From Polytrichum commune (taxonomy: Eukaryota > Streptophyta > Polytrichopsida > Polytrichales > Polytrichaceae), in contig OX485808.1 in the NCBI GenBank assembly GCA_950295325.1, positions 26,246,527 through 26,310,526 on the forward strand: 64,000 nt of DNA. The letters are read 5' to 3'. Made by a program: the position numbers and the translations under genes. The notes beneath the pieces were generated by a model. The model saw only the letters and a program-made list of their open reading frames with translations, did no database searches and had not been told where the DNA came from. Of the stretch, positions 1-64,000 are shown piece after piece; within the stretch, counting starts at the first letter, position 1, and the number at the start of each line of letters is the position of its first letter.

Positions 1-904
1 AGACATTATTGCATCAAACCCAGATTGATTGTTGGTAAGCTTTTATATGTACAGTTATTGGTCTAACATGACCATATAAAAACGCACTCGATGTCCACCT
101 AGCTAGTGTTACTTTGCACTCACACATTCAATGCCCACCGTCATTGTTTAACCGCCCACGAGGACAAAGACATTAGAGCTTCGCTTGCTCTCAAAACTCC
201 AACTCCGGATTTCACCGACGTCCAATTTTGGATGATAAGATGGCTACATCCAACATCTCGCAATGTCCATGTGAACGCACGCCTCCGGTTGCAAAAATCT
301 CCACTAAATTAAACCATCGCCACGTCAAGTCTAGGGAAGGAAAAAAATCACGGGTTTCTTCATTAAAATAACAAAGGGTTTGGTTCGGACGGGAGACAGA
401 AGGCACAAAAGGCCAGCACCGATTATGGGTTGGTCTCATCACAAGCTGATCTTTCAATCCATTGCACCAGCTGCCTCTCCCTCCATGACGACAAAATCAA
501 TATGCTGGCGAATTAAGGACCACTAATGTACTAATTGTTTAATGCTGATTGGCCCCACTTGCATTATGCTGAATAAGAGGGCAAAAGGACATGGGAAGAA
601 GAAGGAGAATAATAATATAAGTTAAGTTAGAGACCCATGGCCGATCTGACACCACCATAAGGTGCCTGCTTTCAACATGTTCGGCACAGTTACCAACATG
701 TGTGTGTCTCAACACCCAGGACTACTACTGCATGGGACAACAAATTAACCCCTTAAACGACGCATGGTCTCCATAGACGGCCCCCCCTATATATATGTAT
801 ATGTATACCCAATTTATGTGGGTTCCACGCTTTATTTTATGCGTTGTCTTGTAAGTTGTGTCAAAAAGAATATACTCATACTTGACATTGTTGGTCGAAA
901 TATA
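1..904. other. Unassigned AT-rich DNA
   Basis: I see no gene, domain or clear repeat here. The reading frames are short and do not resemble known proteins. A small TATATATGTATATG run lies near 788-805. Confidence 0.5.
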
Positions 905-1482: not shown

Positions 1483-2250
1483 TTTTTTCTTTTTCTTTTT
1501 TTGAGACAGAAGGCCAACCCACCCAATGCCAAAATGAATTAAAAACAAGAAGACGCGCCCACACCAAGGGGAGGTGAGACCCCTCGGACGTGAAACACCG
1601 CCACGTAAGGAGAAACGAAAGAATCAACCCCACCAAGGACAACCCCCCGGACCCACCAAGCCAAGGACAACCCCACCCCACCAGCCAAGGACAACCCCCA
1701 AGCCACCAAAACTACCCACAAAGCCCACCTAACTACGTTGCCTTTTCCAGTTCCACTTAATATTCAAATTGTGCCTCCTACAAAGAACATTCCTATCACC
1801 CCCAAGTTTTGTCAAAACCTTGGAGCATGGCCACCACAGAGAAGCTGCTAATCTTGATATGTTTAATCACCCGGTTCCAGACCGCTTTGGCATAAATGAT
1901 GAGTTCATCCTATATCCTATGCTTGACCTTAGATTCATGCCATTATTCATGATTGAACACTTTGTCATTATGTTTCATCCAAATGGTCCACATCGTAATG
2001 CCCCTAAGGAGGTGCCAAATCTTAACCTTTTTGCCGTACTTTTAGGAATCCTTTCCCAAAAAAGTGCTTGTTTCCAACTGAAGCTATCATAATTGCTAGT
2101 TCTAACCCCGCAAAGTTCATGCATAATAAACGTGGCCCATCTCCATGCTCTCCTAGCTTGCAATATGGATTCAATAAAGCAGAGTTGAAGGTTTGTGAAC
2201 TTCCTAAGATATAGCAATTTGAAACCAACACCCTAAAATCTTGCACTACA
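1483..2250 (-). mobile_element. LINE family A, 3' end (coding C-terminus plus 3' UTR)
   Basis: Read on the minus strand, a diverged coding tail occupies about 2250-1745. It includes short blocks such as RAWRWATFIMHELCG and WNWKRQ. A G-rich untranslated region follows at about 1720-1560, then the terminal motif CCTTCTGTCTCA and an A-rich tail at 1483-1510. The same order is present at 61020-62172, 63631-64000 and 27500-28000, and the tail alone at 14757-14869. The frame has several breaks, so this is a dead copy. The upstream boundary is not visible. The LINE assignment rests on the A-tail, the 5' truncation of sister copies and their target duplications, not on a reverse transcriptase in this copy. 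Confidence 0.72.
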
Positions 2251-14756: not shown

Positions 14757-14869
14757 GCCCGAGGGGCTCCGCCTCCCCTTGGTGAGGGCGCGTGTCTTCT
14801 TTTGGTTTTTATTCATTCTGGCGTTGGTTGGTTTGGCCTTCTGTCTCAAAAAAGAAAAGAAAAGAAAGA
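14757..14869 (+). mobile_element. LINE family A, 113-bp 5'-truncated insertion with target duplication
   Basis: Only the last part of the 3' UTR and the tail are present: GAGGGGCTCCGCCTCCCC, then GGCGTTGG, then CCTTCTGTCTCA followed by AAAAAAGAAAAGAAAAG. Flanks match as an imperfect target duplication, GTAAAATCATTATACA at 14741-14756 and GTAAAATATTATACA at 14870-14884. Short 3' fragment, A-tail and duplicated flanks together are the signature of target-primed reverse transcription that stopped early. Confidence 0.88.
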
Positions 14870-27200: not shown

Positions 27201-27499
27201 GTAGAAGGTAGAGCATTGAATTGCTCGTGGTGGAGCAAAGTAGGAGGTTAGTCATTAGAAATGTAATGAAAGAGACGTGAGAAACAATAAGATTAGAATA
27301 AGGCCACAACGCTAGTCCATGAAGGGATAAGAGTGATCTCATATTGTTTGTATGAACTAAGGAAAAGAAAAGAGCAATAAACGACAGAACACAAGACTAT
27401 CTCATTTCAAGCGTTGTTCATATGCCTTTGTGTATGTGTATATCCTTGTGCATTCTCATCTCTAGTTCTATTGACTTCGAATAATTTGGTTAAATGGAT
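27201..27499. other. Unassigned DNA between copia and LINE-A remnants
   Basis: May contain the 3' region of the copia element, but no LTR was recognised. Confidence 0.35.
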
Positions 27500-28000
27500 C
27501 GGGATTTGACACCTTCTACATCATTCTTCAGACCATTTGTTTTAAGAGGAAAGACATGTTCTTTAACCAACAACAGTGGAATAAAATTAAATTTAACCAC
27601 CTTATTTGAGATGAGTTCATCATGTATGCCAAAATGACATGCGTGAGGGTTCTTCAGTATGTCAAGATCAATGCGTTCTTTTAGCCAAGGCTTTGCTCAA
27701 GGTTTTGATAATGGTTTAAGGTTTGTGTAGGTGGGACAACTTATCGATCATGTGTAACAGGGAATGCCTATAACAATAGGCTACATGCATCCTGTTTTGG
27801 GGGAAATGGGGTTCTCCATTCAGTGGTTTGGTGGGTGATCTATAGTGGATGTTGTGTTTTTTCGATTCTCTTTATGCGACGGTGTGACGCACTTGAGGGC
27901 CCCATCTCCCCTCGAGGTGGGTGAGTTTTCTTGGTTCTTAAATCATTCAGTGGTTTTCACTAATTGTCTTCTCTCTCTCAAAGAAGAAGAAGAAGAAAAC
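27500..28000 (+). mobile_element. LINE family A, 3' end (diverged copy)
   Basis: A coding relic at about 27605-27730 (for example GATGAGTTCATCATGTATGC) aligns with the 3' coding end at 1740-1910. It is followed by a 3' UTR with GAGGGCCCCATCTCCCCTC and TTGGTTCTTAA, matching 62068-62132. The end CTCTCTCTCAAAGAAGAAG replaces the usual CTTCTGTCTCAAAA. The copy is more diverged than the others and is followed within 20 bp by a Tourist-like element. Confidence 0.72.
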
Positions 28001-33388: not shown

Positions 33389-33576
33389 TGGTCCGAGATG
33401 ACCTTAAACTACCGGGTGATGGTAGAGGGATACCCAAATCTCAAGGAAGAGGTTGGCGGTTCGAATTCCGGCTGTGAAATCTCCTCTCTACTTGACGGAA
33501 AACTTGCCAGGTGGTCAACTGCCTCCTGTGCTTGGTGTTGGCCTGTCGACCTTCTGTCTCAAAAAAAAAAAAAAAA
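33389..33576 (+). mobile_element. tRNA-derived SINE, full-length, LINE-A-type tail
   Basis: The element begins TGGTCCGAGATGACC (A-box-like) and carries the B box GGTTCGAATTCC at about 33453. The spacing between the boxes is long, as in tRNAs with a variable arm (Leu or Ser type). The body GAAATCTCCTCTCTACTTGA leads to a tail ending GACCTTCTGTCTC and 16 A. A diverged 13-bp duplication flanks it: GTTTGAGAAACAA (33376-33388) and GTTAGAGAAATAA (33577-33589). Its 3' tail matches LINE family A closely, which suggests mobilisation by that LINE's reverse transcriptase. Confidence 0.92.
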
Positions 33577-33709
33577 GTTAGAGAAATAACTGGTTGAAGT
33601 TAAAAGACTTCAGGAAACCTAATTACCCATCACTTTAGAGGAATGTATATATGGAATAAACCTCAAATCAGTAAAGAATAACCCAACAGATCACAGGGCC
33701 CACGCCCTG

Positions 33710-34170
33710 CAACTCTCGGGCATTCCCAAAAACTTTTCTAAACTCGATTGGAAAAATGTTGCTTGCCCAGCCCGACTTCCAAAAAAAGATTGTTCTTGCA
33801 TTTTTTAAGATCACCTAGTCCACAAAATCCATATTGGGTGCTCCTCAATTGCAAAGCCCAAAATCCTATATATATATATATGCACTTTCACTTAGTAAAT
33901 AAGCATTTGATTTGGATTTCATTCCCAAAGTGAAACTGTTAATGAAGCATGCAATTAACTTGGAAGTTAAAGAGACGAAAAAATCCTCTTTCACATTGAG
34001 GTGATGTTTTTTATGACATACCATTTGAAAGAGCCTTCGCCATTTTCAAAATGTGTTTAAAAACAATGTGTTCATTTAAACCAATTTGTCTTACAATAGT
34101 TTACTGACGTCTTCTCCTTTCACAAGTAAATTTCCAAAAGTATTCATACACATTCAAGCTCACCAAGCAT
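33710..34170 (+). repeat. Dispersed repeat R4, copy 1
   Basis: Aligns in direct orientation with 54640-55070. Shared blocks in order include TTGCATT, ATCCATATTG/ATCCCATATTG, ATATATATGCAC, AGTAAATAA, AATGAAGCATG, AATTAACTTGGA, AAAATCCTC, ACATTGAGGT and AAGTATTCATACACATTCAA. It is non-coding and may be an LTR or non-autonomous element; its ends are not defined. Confidence 0.8.
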
Positions 34171-34663
34171 AACCCAACGCACTCAGTGTGGGTTTTGTGC
34201 ACTAGGCAACCTTCAAGAATGCAAGGACAACTGTTTCTTCGAAGTCAAGCGAGACGAGCAACATTTTTCCGGTCAAGGTCCAGTGAAAAGTTTTTATGGG
34301 ACTTTCCAAGGGTTGCGGGTCACCAGGACCCTTATCTTATCTTGGGACCCCTTCCTTAAAAAGCTCGTTGGGAGTGCTTTAGCGTGGGGCCCTAGTGACA
34401 CCACTTATCAAGTCCAAAAGCGGACAGTGGAGATGCTATTTGGTGGGTTCTAAAGGACACGCATATCTAGGACATGCCCCTAATTTTATGGAAGTTAACA
34501 CTCTGTTACTGGCCGGACTTCCTGCCAGCCATGCTTGGCTCCTCAAGTACGTTCTTACTAGGCCCTATACTAAGGGGCACCCCCCTTTGGAGGAAACTCC
34601 CCTTGCATTGACTAGCAATACTTCCCGTTCTTATTGGCGTCTTCGGGATTCACCGTGTATTCA
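34171..34663. other. Unassigned DNA, target region of a SINE stub
   Basis: A frame of 140 codons crosses 34395-34817 but runs through the SINE, so it is a composite artefact. No domain is visible. Confidence 0.4.
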
Positions 34664-34679
34664 AATGTCACTCACTATT

Positions 34680-34780
34680 GAAATCTCCTCTCTACTTGAC
34701 GGAAAACTTGCCAGGTGGTCAACTGCCTCCTGTGCTTTGGCGTTGGCTTGTCGGCCTTCTGTCTCAAAAAAAATAAAAAA
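34680..34780 (+). mobile_element. 5'-truncated SINE stub with perfect 16-bp target duplication
   Basis: Begins GAAATCTCCTCTCTACTTGA, identical to the internal part of the SINE at 33389, and ends GGCCTTCTGTCTC plus an A-rich tail AAAAAAAATAAAAAA. AATGTCACTCACTATT flanks it exactly on both sides (34664-34679 and 34781-34796). The tRNA-related promoter is absent. Identity to the other SINE over about 85 bp with only a few changes, and the intact duplication, indicate a fairly young insertion. Confidence 0.95.
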
Positions 34781-34796
34781 AATGTCACTCACTATT

Positions 34797-55837: not shown

Positions 55838-56452
55838 AGATATCCATGGCATGGAATTACCAAGGGAGAAGTAGAATTTGCCACGACTTTTACCAAGATC
55901 TCTATAAGTACAAGGAAATTTCAGAGGAAGGCCTACATGAGGTGTTTGAGGGATTCCCAATCATTGTCACTCATGCTATGAATGTGTTTTTTTTTCAGAC
56001 TAATTATACATGTAGAATTTTTTACTATAGTAGATTCTATGGCTAAAGAGAAGGCTCCGAGATGGGATTCCCATAGAATTTTTCAACAACTTTGGCCAAC
56101 ATTTGGCAATGACTTCTACCAAATGATCCGTAAAAGTATCAAGCTTAGCGCATTTCATGAGGGGGTCAGTAAAGGTCTCATTAGACTTATCCCAAAGAAA
56201 GGAGATGACGAAAACCTCAATTATTGGCACATGGTTACTCTTTTTACTCCAATTCAAAATCGTTTTTATGCCAAAGTGCTACAATTTAGGTCACAACCTA
56301 TTCTAAGTGATATCATAAGCCCAAAGCATATTGCTTTCCATCCCCTAAGGATTAGTCTTGATAATATTGTTTTAACTTAAGAAGCATTGCAGTGGGTTAA
56401 AACTTCAAGATAACAAACTATCTTTCTTAATCTTGGCTTTTCTAAAGCATCT

Positions 56453-56496
<44 letters not shown>

Positions 56497-58090
56497 GCAA
56501 CAGATGGGTATTAACGTGCAATAGTTTAGGTGAGTCAAAATGACTTTTGGCAATGCTTCTGCTACAATTTACTTGATTGGCAGTTATGTGGAGGATTTTA
56601 ATTTGAAAGAGGGGTTAGGCAAGGGTGCTCACTTGCACCTAACCTCTTTCTAGTTGCCAGAGAGGACTTCATACATGTAATTAAGAAAGCAATAGCATAG
56701 GGAAGATTGAAAGGATTTATCCTTCCAGTCGGGAAGAAACAACAATGTATCTCCCAATATGTGGACAATTCTTCCTTTGTGGTTAGAGGGGATAAGCACT
56801 TGGTGGATGAGTTGGTTAGACTTCTTAGGGTCTTTAGCACAACATCATGGATGGAGATAAACTAGGATAAATCATGTGCGTATTGGTTTAATAAATACAT
56901 GCATAAGCCAAAATGGCTTGCAAGGTTGGCCAAAGAGGGGGATCTTTCTAAGCTACTATGGACCCTGTTGGGCCTCAACCTTAACACTCCCAACGTGGAT
57001 CAATCCCTTTATGCCAAAATTCCTAAGAAGTTGGGGCTCCACAAACTTTCACTTGTAGGCATGGTAGTCATTTGCAACCAAGTCCTTCTTTCTACTTCGT
57101 GGTATTTCATCGATGTATGGGGAGGTTCCAACAAACTTCTAAGGAAAATAAAGAGGGGGCATCTGTAACTACCTATGGTCATGTAAAGAGCAACTTATAG
57201 GCACTAGGGTTAGTTGAGGAGAATGTTGCATGCAAAAGAAGTATGAGGGGCTAGGACAGGTGTATCATGAGGCAAGTAAAACTGGTCTCCTATGTAAATG
57301 ACTTATTAAGGCAATGGATCCAAGTGAGTCCAACCTTTTGCTCATGCTTAGGTATAGGCTGACACTACAAAGAGGAGAAGTTGGGGTTGGGATGGATTGG
57401 TACATTAGAAAGCAAGAGATTGGATTTATAGGATCCAAGGTTTGTGGGCACATTAGAAAAGCATAGAAAGTCACAGTCAAGAGTATTTACCAACTGCTCC
57501 CCTCTCCCACCCTCCTTAAATTGCTTCACTCCAACATTTGGTGGTTGAAGGTCTTGAGCTCATTAATAATGGTTTCACATATGCTAGGGCCCATGAATTG
57601 CACCACAAGGGGATTCAATGCATTGATGACATCTAGGGTAACGAGTATCGTACCTTCCTCTGATGGGAGGAGCCCTAGATAATTCAATCTCACCCTAACA
57701 AACTTTGATGATTGGATTCTTCTTACCTCTAAGATCATTGATTAATGGTGAAATCTTATGGATAACGATCTAGATGTCACTCTTCCCGGGCAATGGGTAG
57801 GCTTCTATAGATATGGAGACCTTGTGGTTTATTAATTATGGTAATTTGTTACTTGGTGTTTGTCCAAATTACTCCTTCCACCATGCATCAACACCACCTC
57901 TACGTGCCTATCATTGAGAAATGCTACATGATTGACACCTATTCTAGATGCCTTAGTGAGTGGGAGAAACCTATCGAGGACATGACCGGCTTCATTCACA
58001 CTACTTGGGGTAAGGGGAATGCTATTTCATGAGGAAACTCATGTTGTAGGTGTTTCATCTTTGTAGAATAGAGTTCAATTACCATGGATG
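55838..58090 (+). pseudogene. LINE reverse transcriptase and C-terminal region, decayed
   Basis: Plus-strand translation over several frames gives non-LTR reverse transcriptase blocks in order. KEKAPRWDS (usual GKAPGPD), then VSKGLIRLIPKKGD and FYAKVLQFRSQPIL, then SPKHIAFHPLRISLDNIVLT occupy about 56045-56380. GVRQGCSLAPNLF is at about 56605-56650. The active-site region is altered to YVDN (usual F/Y-A-D-D) at about 56758. A typical thumb-adjacent segment follows to about 57165, then further coding relics to 58030 (RAHELHHKGIQCIDD). An AT microsatellite at 56456-56494 splits the domain. Loss of the second catalytic Asp, stops and frameshifts show it is dead. It may be the 5' counterpart of LINE family A, but no overlap proves this. 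Confidence 0.88.
56456..56494. repeat. (AT)n microsatellite, 39 bp
   Basis: An uninterrupted AT/TA run inside the LINE reverse transcriptase pseudogene. Confidence 0.97.
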
Positions 58091-58289
58091 GGGTAGGCAA
58101 AAGGTTTCTTTGTAATTTCTACTCAAGAGAGAGTTAATTTTTAATTTTTATGGGTTGCTCAAGTTACCCAAAATAAATAAATGAAGAATGAACCTAAAAC
58201 ATCCACGAGAAGACCAACTAAAAGGAAACAAACAAGAGGGTTGTAATTGCCCTTGACGATTCTCTACAGAAGACAAAACCTGAGAAAAT

Positions 58290-58690
58290 ATTTGTAAAAG
58301 CAACCAGTTTCTTGAGCCCATCTGGATGAAGGCAGTTACCAACAAGTCCACCCTCAAATAAATAGCATTTAAATACTATTTTTTGAAGCTTACATGTGGT
58401 GATCGTCCACCCAAGATTAAACTAAAACTATAAATAAATAAAAAGTTAAAAAATCGGCCAAGTTCTTGATCCCCACCTCTTGCACATAATTGCCACCTCC
58501 AACGCAATCCCAAATAAATAGCATTTTAATTTACCATGCATTTGGTGATCCTCCACACAAGACTAAACCTAAAAGATGTAAAAAAAAAATTAAAAAAAAA
58601 CGGCCAAGTTTTTTAGTCCATCCACATGGGGGCAATTGCCACCTCCAAATGCAGTGCCAAAAGGTAGCATTTCAATGCTATAGTTTTTAG
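58290..58690. repeat. Tandem array, ~150-bp unit, about 2.5 copies
   Basis: CAAATAAATAGCATTT at 58355 and 58511, with CAAAAGGTAGCATTT at 58658, gives spacings of 156 and 147. CGGCCAAGTT-TT at 58455 and 58601, with CAACCAGTTT at 58301, gives 154 and 146. GGTGATC and AATTGCCACCTCC also recur. Confidence 0.88.
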
Positions 58691-58970
58691 AGTACATTTA
58701 TTGAAACCCCTCCAAGAATAATTACAAAGATCAATATGTAGTATGCCCAACCCTTAATGATTAACCCTTTGTCGCCCCTCAGTGACCTAAGGGGTCATCT
58801 CTTGTCGGGAGAGTATTCTAGATTGCCACCTCACACTATCATCCGGGCTTCCTACTTAACATAGTGACTTTTATATACTTCAAGAAGAGATAGGTGCATG
58901 CCCCATTAGATTTTGTTGATATGAAGGAGAATGATGCACTGAGGTGAAATTGATCCTCGTAGAAGGTCAC
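58691..58970. other. Unassigned DNA
   Basis: No recognisable feature. Confidence 0.4.
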
Positions 58971-59421
58971 TAAGGGCCGGTTTACACTATGAACCATGAA
59001 GTTGGACCAGGGCTCTACAAGGCATCTGATTGGCTGTTGAAGTTCTCCCGGGATAACTTCGGTTTACACTAAGGAAAAAATGGCAGAGGGACCATGGAGG
59101 TCGAGGTCCCCAAAATATATTTTTTAAGGCCTCATAAATGCACTGACATGGTCCAACGGGTTTTGCGGTGACAGAGGAAAGAGAGGTGGTATGGTAGGAA
59201 AAGGCAAGGGCCCATGTCAGAGATAAACCATTTCAATAAATTTTCAATGAATCTACCTTTTATGTGCCTTAATTGTACCATAGCCCATGAGACATACCAG
59301 CACTACCTTGCCCTACCCCTTAAACCGGCTCACACGAGTTTCACCAAACAACGTGGGACATCTAGAACTCAAGAATTCAAGTGCAGATTTGTTTTTTTGG
59401 TCTATCAAATGCAATGTTTGG

Positions 59422-59497
59422 AATTTGGGGGCTTGTAATATACCGTTGAAAAGGTCTTGAAAATACCTTTCCAACGGTATATTACACACCCCAAATT
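59422..59497. repeat. Hairpin with ~34-bp arms inside the Tourist-like element
   Basis: GTAATATACCGTTGAAAAGG (from 59435) pairs with the complement of CCTTTCCAACGGTATATTAC (to 59485), with one mismatch and a 9-nt loop. After a small asymmetric bulge, AATTTGGGG (59422) pairs with CCCCAAATT (59489). Confidence 0.93.
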
Positions 59498-59589
59498 TTT
59501 TGAAAAATTCAGTTGAAAAGAAAAAAAGAAAAATCTGTAGTGGTTTAGTGACTGTAGATCAGGGTAGTCAAAAGAAGTGCAATGGGAAA

Positions 59590-59655
59590 TCTTCTAACAC
59601 TAATTATCAAAGAATTGAAAATTAGTGTTGAGCAAGGTAGGGTGGTAAAGACATT
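59590..59655 (+). repeat. Dispersed repeat R5, copy 1 (inside the Tourist-like element)
   Basis: Reverse-complement match to 63403-63463 (GAATTGAAAATTAGTGTTGA/TCAACATTAATTTTCAATTC, and AGGGTGGTAA/TTACCACCCT). It contains its own short palindrome AACACTAATT...AATTAGTGTT. Confidence 0.85.
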
Positions 59656-60096
59656 AAATATAATAAAACATTAAATATCCTATTTAGTGTAGTGACAACA
59701 CAAGGTACATGTCACATGTAAATTACATTGAGCATGTACAAATTAAATTGCTCATTTTTCTTTTGTAAAAATTGTTGTGAGAAGATTTGCAAGACACATC
59801 TTCGACGCATTTAACAAGAAGTGAAGACAAGTGAAGCCCAAGAGAAGACAAGGAATGATGAAACTCAATTTATATTTTTTCCAAATTGTCCTTTTTGGGC
59901 ATTTATTAAAAAAATCAGCACCTTCACTTTTTGGTGCATGGTCATTCTTCATGGTCCACATTCGGTTTACACCTAGTGAGGGGCCCAAGGCTCTCAAAAC
60001 TATTTTTTTATGAAGTCGGACCATGGAAGTCGGACCATTGACAAAGGCCATCTTTTATGGTCCGACTTCATGGTCCATAGTGTAAACCGGCCCTAA

Positions 60097-61019
60097 GACA
60101 TGAGCAAGGAGGTAAATTATCTTGCATGTGGTGTTGCCCATTGTAAATGTAAGCTATCTTTAGTAGTTTGAGCAACAACCCAAAGAAAACAAGCTCTAAA
60201 GATGGCATTCAAGTTCAATATGAGAGACACTCATCGTCCGGTCAATAAACTTTGACCACCTCTAGAAAAGGCCTATAATCAAAATTTGGAATTTCAATTT
60301 CTCATTTGTATGTATTTTTTATTTTTTATATGTGTATATATTTTAATCCAAAGGCCACATCCATCATGTTATCCTAATTTAGAAAAATGATTTTCATTAG
60401 TTACCTTAGACCCCAACTTTATAAAGTTAACTTTGCAAACATTGCATCTTCTCAAATTTTATTGAAATGATGATAATTTTGTTCCCATGCCTTCATAATT
60501 AAGCTAGCTCTACATGCAAATGGCCAATCAAAACAGATGTTGAAAATAATAGGCTCAAATGTGCTCAACATTAAGGGTGGTATGAATTCTCTAAGTTCAT
60601 TGGAATGCACCCAAGGGCAATACATGGTAGACGTATAATTGTTCATTTTTCTTACTAGGCCACTTCTTCTAGGATATGAAACATGATATTATTACAAGAT
60701 GATGAGCAAATATAAATTAGGTCCATAATCAATTTTCTCATATTTTTTGGAGCTCATATGATTATCTTACTCAATAATTGATATACAAATCCTCATGCTT
60801 GACATTAAATGGTTATATAGTTCCTCCCCCCCTTATGTTGACTATCAGGCCTATAATGGTTAACATATTTTGAACATGCATATAATCCAATCTCTTCTAA
60901 ATGTACATGTCTTTTTGTATTTGTTCTTGGAGCCACACCTAACCACATACCACTTAAATATAGGTGTCCTATCAATATAAATAATTGATTCAGGCACCCA
61001 TTAGGGACACGTTGAAAAA
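60097..61019. other. Unassigned AT-rich DNA
   Basis: No gene supported. Confidence 0.4.
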
Positions 61020-62172
61020 ATTGTTCTAGGAATTGTGAAGATCCAAGGGAATTTGACTATTTTGGGAATTGTGAAGTTCCAAGGGAATTCCAGTGTCCGG
61101 GGAGATTTTTGGGCATAACAGGGTGGAAGACTACTAGTTTCTCAACTACACCACCAAATTTGGCATGATGGAGATTATTACCAGGAACTATGAGAACAAT
61201 AGGATGGCTTACAAGTGGGAAGGCTACCTTCCGGGGAACTATAGTTTCTATTGGTCTTAGGTTTGGGACTTGGCATGCTATGGTAGAGAAATTCACCTAC
61301 TTTGGTTACAACATTCTTTTCTATTGCACCTAAAATATCCATCCTTGCAAAAATGCCTATGGCATAAGGCCGTTGTTGTCAACAAACGGAGGGCCCGCAT
61401 CGCTCCAGCATCTATCTCCAACAATGTGTTTTTTTCTCCTCCTAATACAAGTGAATCAATTAAACACAAGTTTTGGATTGCATTCAAGGGAGGCATGATT
61501 GGTGGTGGACAAATTTCATCATGCATGAGCTTTGCGGGGTTAGGATGGGCAACTTTGATAGTTTTAACTAGAAGCAAGCCCTTTATGGGGAAAGAATCTC
61601 TAAGAAGTTTGCTAAGAAAATCAAGATTGAGCACCTTCTCCAAGGCATCACCTATTGGATGATTGGGATTGAATAGGATGATAGGTTGTTCAACCATAAA
61701 CATTGGCATGAGTCCAAAATGAAACACCTTAATTTGAGATGACCTTGTTATGTACACCAAGGTGGCTTCCGAAAGGGTAGTTAATTTGTTAAGATTAGCG
61801 TATACTTGACCAAAGCCCTCCTCATAGGCTTCGATCAAACTTGGGGTGATAGGAAGGTTCTTTGTAGACACAATAGAATAAAACTCGCATGGAATCGGAA
61901 ATGGCAATGTATGTATGTAGTTAGACACTTTGGTCACTTGGCGGCTTGGGGGTTGTCGTTGGTAGGTGGGGTGGGGGTGCTTCTTGGTTGGGTGGTTTGG
62001 TAGGTTATCCTTGGTGGGTTCTTGTTATTTGGTTCTCTGTTACTTTTATGTGGTAGTGTGGTGCGTATGAGGGGCTCTGCCTCCCCTCAAAGTGGGCACA
62101 TCTTCCTCCCTTGGTTCTTAATTCTTCTGGCACGGGCTTTTTTGGCCTACGGTCTCAAAATAAAATAAAAGT
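61020..62172 (+). mobile_element. LINE family A, longest 3' fragment
   Basis: A plus-strand coding relic includes a 130-codon open stretch (61270-61662) with SCMSFAGLGWATLIVLTRSK and SLRSLLRKSRL. It aligns with the minus-strand translation at 2217-1980. After stops it continues to about 61910 (NRKWQ). The G-rich 3' UTR follows (61945-62030: GGTGGGGTGGGGGTGC), then GAGGGGCTCTGCCTCCCCTC (62068), TTGGTTCTTAATTCTTCTGG, GGTCTCAAAA and an A-rich tail. The antisense strand also has a 214-codon open frame (61937-61293); because homology and the A-tail both point to the plus strand, I regard that frame as spurious. Confidence 0.8.
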
Positions 62173-63620: not shown

Positions 63621-64000
63621 TTATTTATTTTTGAGACAGAAGGCCAACCCAGCCAACGCCAAATGAATTGAGAACAAAAGAGAAAACCGCACCCATCACC
63701 GGGGGGAGGCGGGACACCACCATGTAAACGGAACCAAGAGCAAAACCTCACCACGGAAACCCCCCCCCCCCCCCACCCCACTTGCCAAGGACAACCCCCA
63801 AACCACTTCCCCGCCCCCGAGGCGGGGCAAACACTACCTACCAACTATGTCTCTTCCAATTCCACTCAATATGTAAATTCCTTCTCCTACATAAAACATT
63901 TATGGCCCCCCATGTTTTGTCGAAACCTTGAAGCATTGCCACCGCCGACAAGCTACTGATCTTGATGTGTTCGAGCACTCGGTTCCACGCCGCCTTGGCG
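63621..64000 (-). mobile_element. LINE family A, 3' end, running off the window edge
   Basis: On the minus strand the coding tail enters at 64000 (AAWNRVLEHIKISSLSA, GFDKTWG, IEWNWKR) and is the least damaged example of this segment here. A G-rich 3' UTR with a 16-G run follows (63759-63774 as C on the plus strand), then TTGGCGTTGGCTGGGTTGGC, CTTCTGTCTCA and an (AAAT)n tail (63621-63632). The element continues beyond the window, so the upstream sequence could hold the full reverse transcriptase. Confidence 0.83.

Follow-up and report, generated by a model that had tools for sequence, protein, structure and literature searches.

A SINE and an L1-like LINE family with a common 3′ tail in a non-flowering green plant: evidence for a retroposition partnership

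SINEs that carry the 3′ end of an L1-clade LINE are rare on record: a survey of this clade covering over 800 LINEs found only three SINEs with L1 tails (PMC3747384). The green-plant pairs listed there are those of maize and sorghum (ZmSINE2 and ZmSINE3 with LINE1-1) and of Chlamydomonas (SINEX-3_CR with L1-1_CR), and the ancestral green-plant L1 was proposed to have been stringent, with relaxation occurring later (PMC3747384). The maize SINE/LINE pair is described in PMC2774510. In the L2 elements of zebrafish, which belong to another clade, the ORF2 protein must bind the cognate 3′ stem-loop (PMC4176376).

Within the window (the whole stretch of 64,000 nt analysed here), the final ~32 nt of a 173-nt SINE recur at the end of an L1-like LINE family, hereafter denoted LINE-A; in both, this tail reads TTGGCGTTGGC-(5–6 variable nt)-GGCCTTCTGTCTCA and is followed by poly(A). 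We take the host to be a non-flowering green plant, because its plastid contig (146561 bp, with rbcL, chlL and rpoA) carries chlL, which to our knowledge the plastids of flowering plants lack; cysT was not found on this contig. The pair resembles that of maize ZmSINE2/ZmSINE3 and LINE1-1_ZM, together with the sorghum relatives, in which SINEs with pol III boxes share an L1-clade 3′ end (~50 nt in that case) with a predicted hairpin (PMC2774510; PMC3747384), but it differs in its tail sequence, in ending in poly(A) where ZmSINE2 ends in poly(T), and in its non-flowering host. An L1-clade LINE tail on a SINE, with poly(A) on both partners, is also seen in Chlamydomonas SINEX-3_CR and L1-1_CR (PMC3747384), although ~80 nt are common to the two in that green alga, as against ~32 nt here. 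The tobacco TS SINE with RTE-1_Stu offers a further likeness, being a plant tRNA-derived SINE with a LINE 3′ end (PMC3747384), whereas its partner is of the RTE clade, its end is (TTG)n and its common segment measures ~100 nt, in place of the L1-like partner, poly(A) and ~32 nt of the present pair. Eel UnaL2 and zebrafish ZfL2-1 and ZfL2-2 likewise have a 3′ stem-loop near the terminal repeat, common to SINE and LINE in eel (PMC4176376); these elements belong to the L2 clade, the ORF2 requirement is experimental and specificity resides in the loop, whereas in the present tails it is the loop that varies and the structure is predicted from sequence. The SINE and LINE-A are best explained as a further L1-clade pair, of which few are recorded for green plants in the open-licence literature (later reports may exist).

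The copies present in the window are collected in Table 1. CTTCTGTCTCA occurs exactly at 1502-1512(-), 14838-14848(+), 33551-33561(+), 34756-34766(+) and 63632-63642(-), which are the 3′ ends of two SINE copies and three LINE-A copies; allowing up to one mismatch, the window has 7 matches, compared with 1.0 expected, and none of 100 shuffles reaches 7. These five ends, together with the exact copies found across the genome (below), bear out the ~30-nt tail sharing that an earlier note on this DNA had claimed. A near-match at 392-402(-) was rejected as a family member since it sits in single-copy DNA, and the region 385-560(-), considered as a second SINE family, was rejected as single copy.

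Table 1. SINE copies, LINE-A copies and LINE-A relatives located in the window.
Feature	Position	Strand	Content
LINE-A 3′ portion	1502..2230	-	C-terminal ORF2 remnant, 3′UTR, shared tail TTGGCATTGGGTGGGTTGGCCTTCTGTCTCA, A-rich run
LINE-A, last ~92 nt only	14757..14848	+	shared tail CTGGCGTTGGTTGGTTTGGCCTTCTGTCTCA; imperfect target duplication
Decayed LINE-A relative	27480..27990	+	C-terminal remnant 27520-27681, degenerate tail
SINE 1, full length	33390..33576	+	GGTCCGAG start, box B-like GGTTCGAATTC, unique middle, tail, poly(A)
SINE 2, 5′-truncated	34680..34780	+	~87 nt (34680-34766) plus A-rich run, shared tail TTGGCGTTGGCTTGTCGGCCTTCTGTCTCA
Older LINE-A relative, interrupted	55876..62157	+	RT 46-64% identical in pieces
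LINE-A 3′ portion	63632..64000	-	consensus-like tail TTGGCGTTGGCTGGGTTGGCCTTCTGTCTCA; continues past window end

SINE 1 comprises 33390-33561 plus an A-run, with the shared tail at 33532-33561 (TTGGTGTTGGCCTGTCGACCTTCTGTCTCA), and is flanked by an imperfect 11-nt target duplication (AGTTTGAGAAA/AGTTAGAGAAA), whereas the direct repeats flanking SINE 2 (AATGTCACTCACTATT; 34664-34679 and 34781-34796) are perfect. Target duplications had earlier been noted on members of both classes; this stands for SINE 2 and, genome-wide, for clear cases of each class (visible, for example, at five SINE loci), but within the window the duplication at the LINE-A end 14757-14848 is, like that of SINE 1, imperfect, and none was shown for the LINE-A ends at 1502 and 63632.

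The genome searched comprised 408 Mb and includes seven large scaffolds. The pattern TTGGCGTTGGC-N1..15-CTTCTGTCTCA has 347 exact copies, versus 0 for its reversed control, and GGCCTTCTGTCTCAAAA has 511, versus 0 for the control. Among the first 60 loci of the exact-copy list for the former pattern, which were picked by the tail alone, 23 have a SINE body, 21 a LINE body and 16 little or no body, the last being mostly elements trimmed to the tail by extreme 5′ truncation. A further 39 loci, picked on GGCCTTCTGTCTCAAAA, are all SINEs, LINEs or near-solo tails; no third tail-bearing family was found among these 60 and 39 tail-selected loci. The two classes differ slightly within the tail, LINEs having ..GTT-GGCC and SINEs almost always ..GTC-GGCC.

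The 173-nt SINE consensus, built from 30 copies, has a uniform GGTCCGAG 5′ start, A-rich ends and a perfect box B-like GGTTCGAATCC, whilst the A box is, by eye, degenerate. Of 2148 candidates, 41 gave scored matches, and the box B stretch has 256 exact genome copies. The element is short and dispersed, with a defined 5′ end, an A-rich 3′ end and no coding capacity, as befits a SINE. For the SINE head, neither a comparison with tRNA in Rfam (E<=10) nor ARAGORN gave a match.

ORF2 of LINE-A, analysed from fragments of the copies at C2:24.26 Mb and C1:54.09 Mb, contains RVT_1 (PF00078; E=2.9e-29) and Exo_endo_phos (PF03372; E=3.8e-11) domains. Among solved proteins, human L1 ORF2p comes nearest (E=8.5e-34, compared with 1e-19 for R2), and this ranking of solved-structure matches supports a probable affinity of LINE-A with the L1 clade. 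Searching the genome with the RT core recovered frames of 1415-1439 aa that are free of interruptions and 78-86% identical. In 10 of the 23 RT loci with at least 68% identity, an exact tail follows the RT at a downstream distance of 2.2-2.9 kb, mostly 2197-2243 nt, as against none of 14 more distant RTs (<51% identity; p=0.006 for the contrast). The tails of the intact copies at C1:68135526 and C1:44088393 were read directly, and intact copies missed by the strict pattern (L150, L170) have the tail with small changes; tail-bearing LINEs reach down to 55-64% RT identity (L151, L173 and the window element ending at 62157). The ORF1 region was glimpsed in a single copy (L131). Upstream of the copy at C2:24.26 Mb there are frames which, by eye, resemble a Tigger/pogo-type DDE transposase.

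The arrangement of two conserved blocks around a variable loop arises, on prediction, because the tail forms a hairpin. In all tails tested this is GGCR / UU / GGC / loop / GCC / UU / C.GUC, then UCA and poly(A); the same fold is predicted in six tails, which represent the SINE, LINE-A and relatives whose RT is 58-64% identical, and the diverged tail of the older relative in the window (62125-62157; TTCTGGCACGGGCTTTTTTGGCCTACGGTCTCA) folds alike. Taken singly, most of these hairpins do not exceed shuffles in stability (z -0.6 to -1.95). Compensatory double changes were not seen at the tail stem pairs, where the changes are one-sided and compatible (for example G-U to A-U and C-G to U-G) and in part reflect CpG decay. 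One LINE subfamily (L110, L125) has a 1-nt loop and its inner stem cannot form. In maize the stem covaries and the loop and flank are fixed, whereas the present tails combine a fixed stem with a variable loop. Separately, the LINE-A 3′UTR (in three copies, for example) has a strong hairpin, CCGAGGGG-(loop)-CCCCTCGG (z -2.5), which is located ~60-90 nt from the LINE end, outside the shared region, and is absent from the SINE; it has apparent paired changes between CCGAGGGG/CCCCTCGG and CCGGGGGG/CCCCCCGG.

Insertions of the SINE and of LINE-A have an A-tail, target duplications of about 12-17 nt and frequent 5′ truncation, which together indicate L1-type target-primed reverse transcription. Seven LINE-type insertions retain just 1-17 nt before the tail core, and in a scan with mismatched pairs as the null their duplications outscore every control; by eye, three insertions begin inside the tail itself. 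Such ultra-short insertions are no proof that the tail alone suffices, because truncation occurs during cDNA synthesis. A LINE tail of ~23-50 nt plus poly(A) between target duplications is a common sight, and in roughly 40% of the LINE-type tails among the loci picked by tail, as judged by eye, <40 nt of LINE precede the tail core.

Copies of a second L1 lineage terminate in (T)TGCAATTGAATTTTCAATTTGTGCC(A)n or in related forms (three loci at 45-51% RT identity, one at 42%). The core of its conserved tail, TTGCAATTGAATTTTCAATTTGTGCC(A)n, has 176 exact genome copies, versus 0 when reversed, and a weak hairpin is predicted for it; no SINE with this tail was present among the 11 copies sampled, which comprise LINEs, repeats of a single LINE insertion and short ends left by truncation. 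That two L1 lineages each have a terminal tail of their own agrees with stringent recognition. One second-lineage insertion recurs four times on C1, always beside the same 3′ flank, which suggests that it sits within a larger dispersed repeat. A further RT lineage (37-39% identity) has very long open frames, the longest of 1845 aa, and is GC-richer downstream; no LINE-A-like tail was found in the 1.4-kb pieces covering four of its long-frame RT loci, and the 3′ ends probably lie beyond these.

We consider it likely, with a probability of roughly 0.8, that the SINE, as a non-autonomous retroposon, depends on LINE-A for its mobilisation in trans, via stringent recognition of the 3′ tail. By analogy with the maize, Chlamydomonas and zebrafish L2 systems, we infer that the tail would be the element recognised by the LINE-A enzyme: the ORF2 protein would bind the shared tail and start target-primed reverse transcription, with either its own transcript (in cis) or the SINE RNA (in trans) as template. 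The SINE itself probably originated when a head resembling a tRNA, together with a unique middle, became fused to a LINE-A 3′ end. The open frames of LINE-A are apparently intact, and the SINE copies look recent.

The same observations might also arise with a relaxed L1, if the SINE gained the LINE-A 3′ end at birth and now moves by poly(A) alone, the tail being a functionless relic. A-rich runs end both classes, and an L1 that reads poly(A) could also move the SINE; moreover, variability in the tail stem of the SINE is nearly as high as in its body (0.031 versus about 0.035-0.042), and the stem is devoid of covariation. We nevertheless regard a relic tail as rather improbable, since in LINE copies that were not tail-selected conservation of the 3′UTR peaks in the last 30 nt (mean pairwise identity 0.87, versus 0.76 over the 320 nt upstream), with near-invariant stems and a variable loop, and the tail is retained in the relatives at 55-64% RT identity. 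Such conservation in the LINE and its relatives is expected if LINE-A itself needs the tail. That the second L1 lineage keeps a conserved tail of its own also argues against the relic.

The identity of the SINE and LINE-A is confined to the 3′ tail. Alignment of the full SINE to the LINE 3′ end gives a local score of 43, compared with a maximum of 28 in 500 shuffles; an alignment of the two consensuses, as the earlier note had proposed, covers only the last 33 columns, and with the tails removed the bodies score 16, which is the shuffle level. It is very unlikely that the short element is an amplified, internally deleted copy of LINE-A rather than a SINE: a relaxed alignment of the SINE middle with the LINE 3′UTR was suggestive of homology (matched by only 2.3% of shuffles), but this was rejected by a profile of 56 LINE 3′UTRs, which scores the SINE body at -1.7 bits, a value reached by 1542 of 1922 shuffles, and the copies have a defined 5′ end and the box B-like motif. 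Chance or an alignment artefact, for which the shortness of the segment (~32 nt, of which about 5 are variable) might speak, has a negligible probability in view of the exact genome copies, the empty reversed controls and the local score. The SINE/LINE partnership proposed in the earlier note is supported both by this tail-confined identity and by the LINE-A reverse transcriptase; the doubt raised there, that the LINE copies might have no such enzyme, is dispelled by the two ORF2 domains and the long frames with the tail ~2.2 kb downstream.

The pair also bears on how L1 recognition evolved in plants. At least two L1 lineages have their own conserved tail with a predicted hairpin, and one of these would be parasitised by a SINE, which leads us to suggest, as a tentative possibility, that the ancestral state of land-plant L1s may have been a general, stringent and lineage-specific recognition of the 3′ tail; the L1s of flowering plants, which are relaxed and read poly(A), would then represent a derived condition. 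As an L1 pair in a non-flowering plant, the SINE and LINE-A are intermediate between the algal and grass cases, and they make the proposal of ancestral stringency testable by experiment and by tree.
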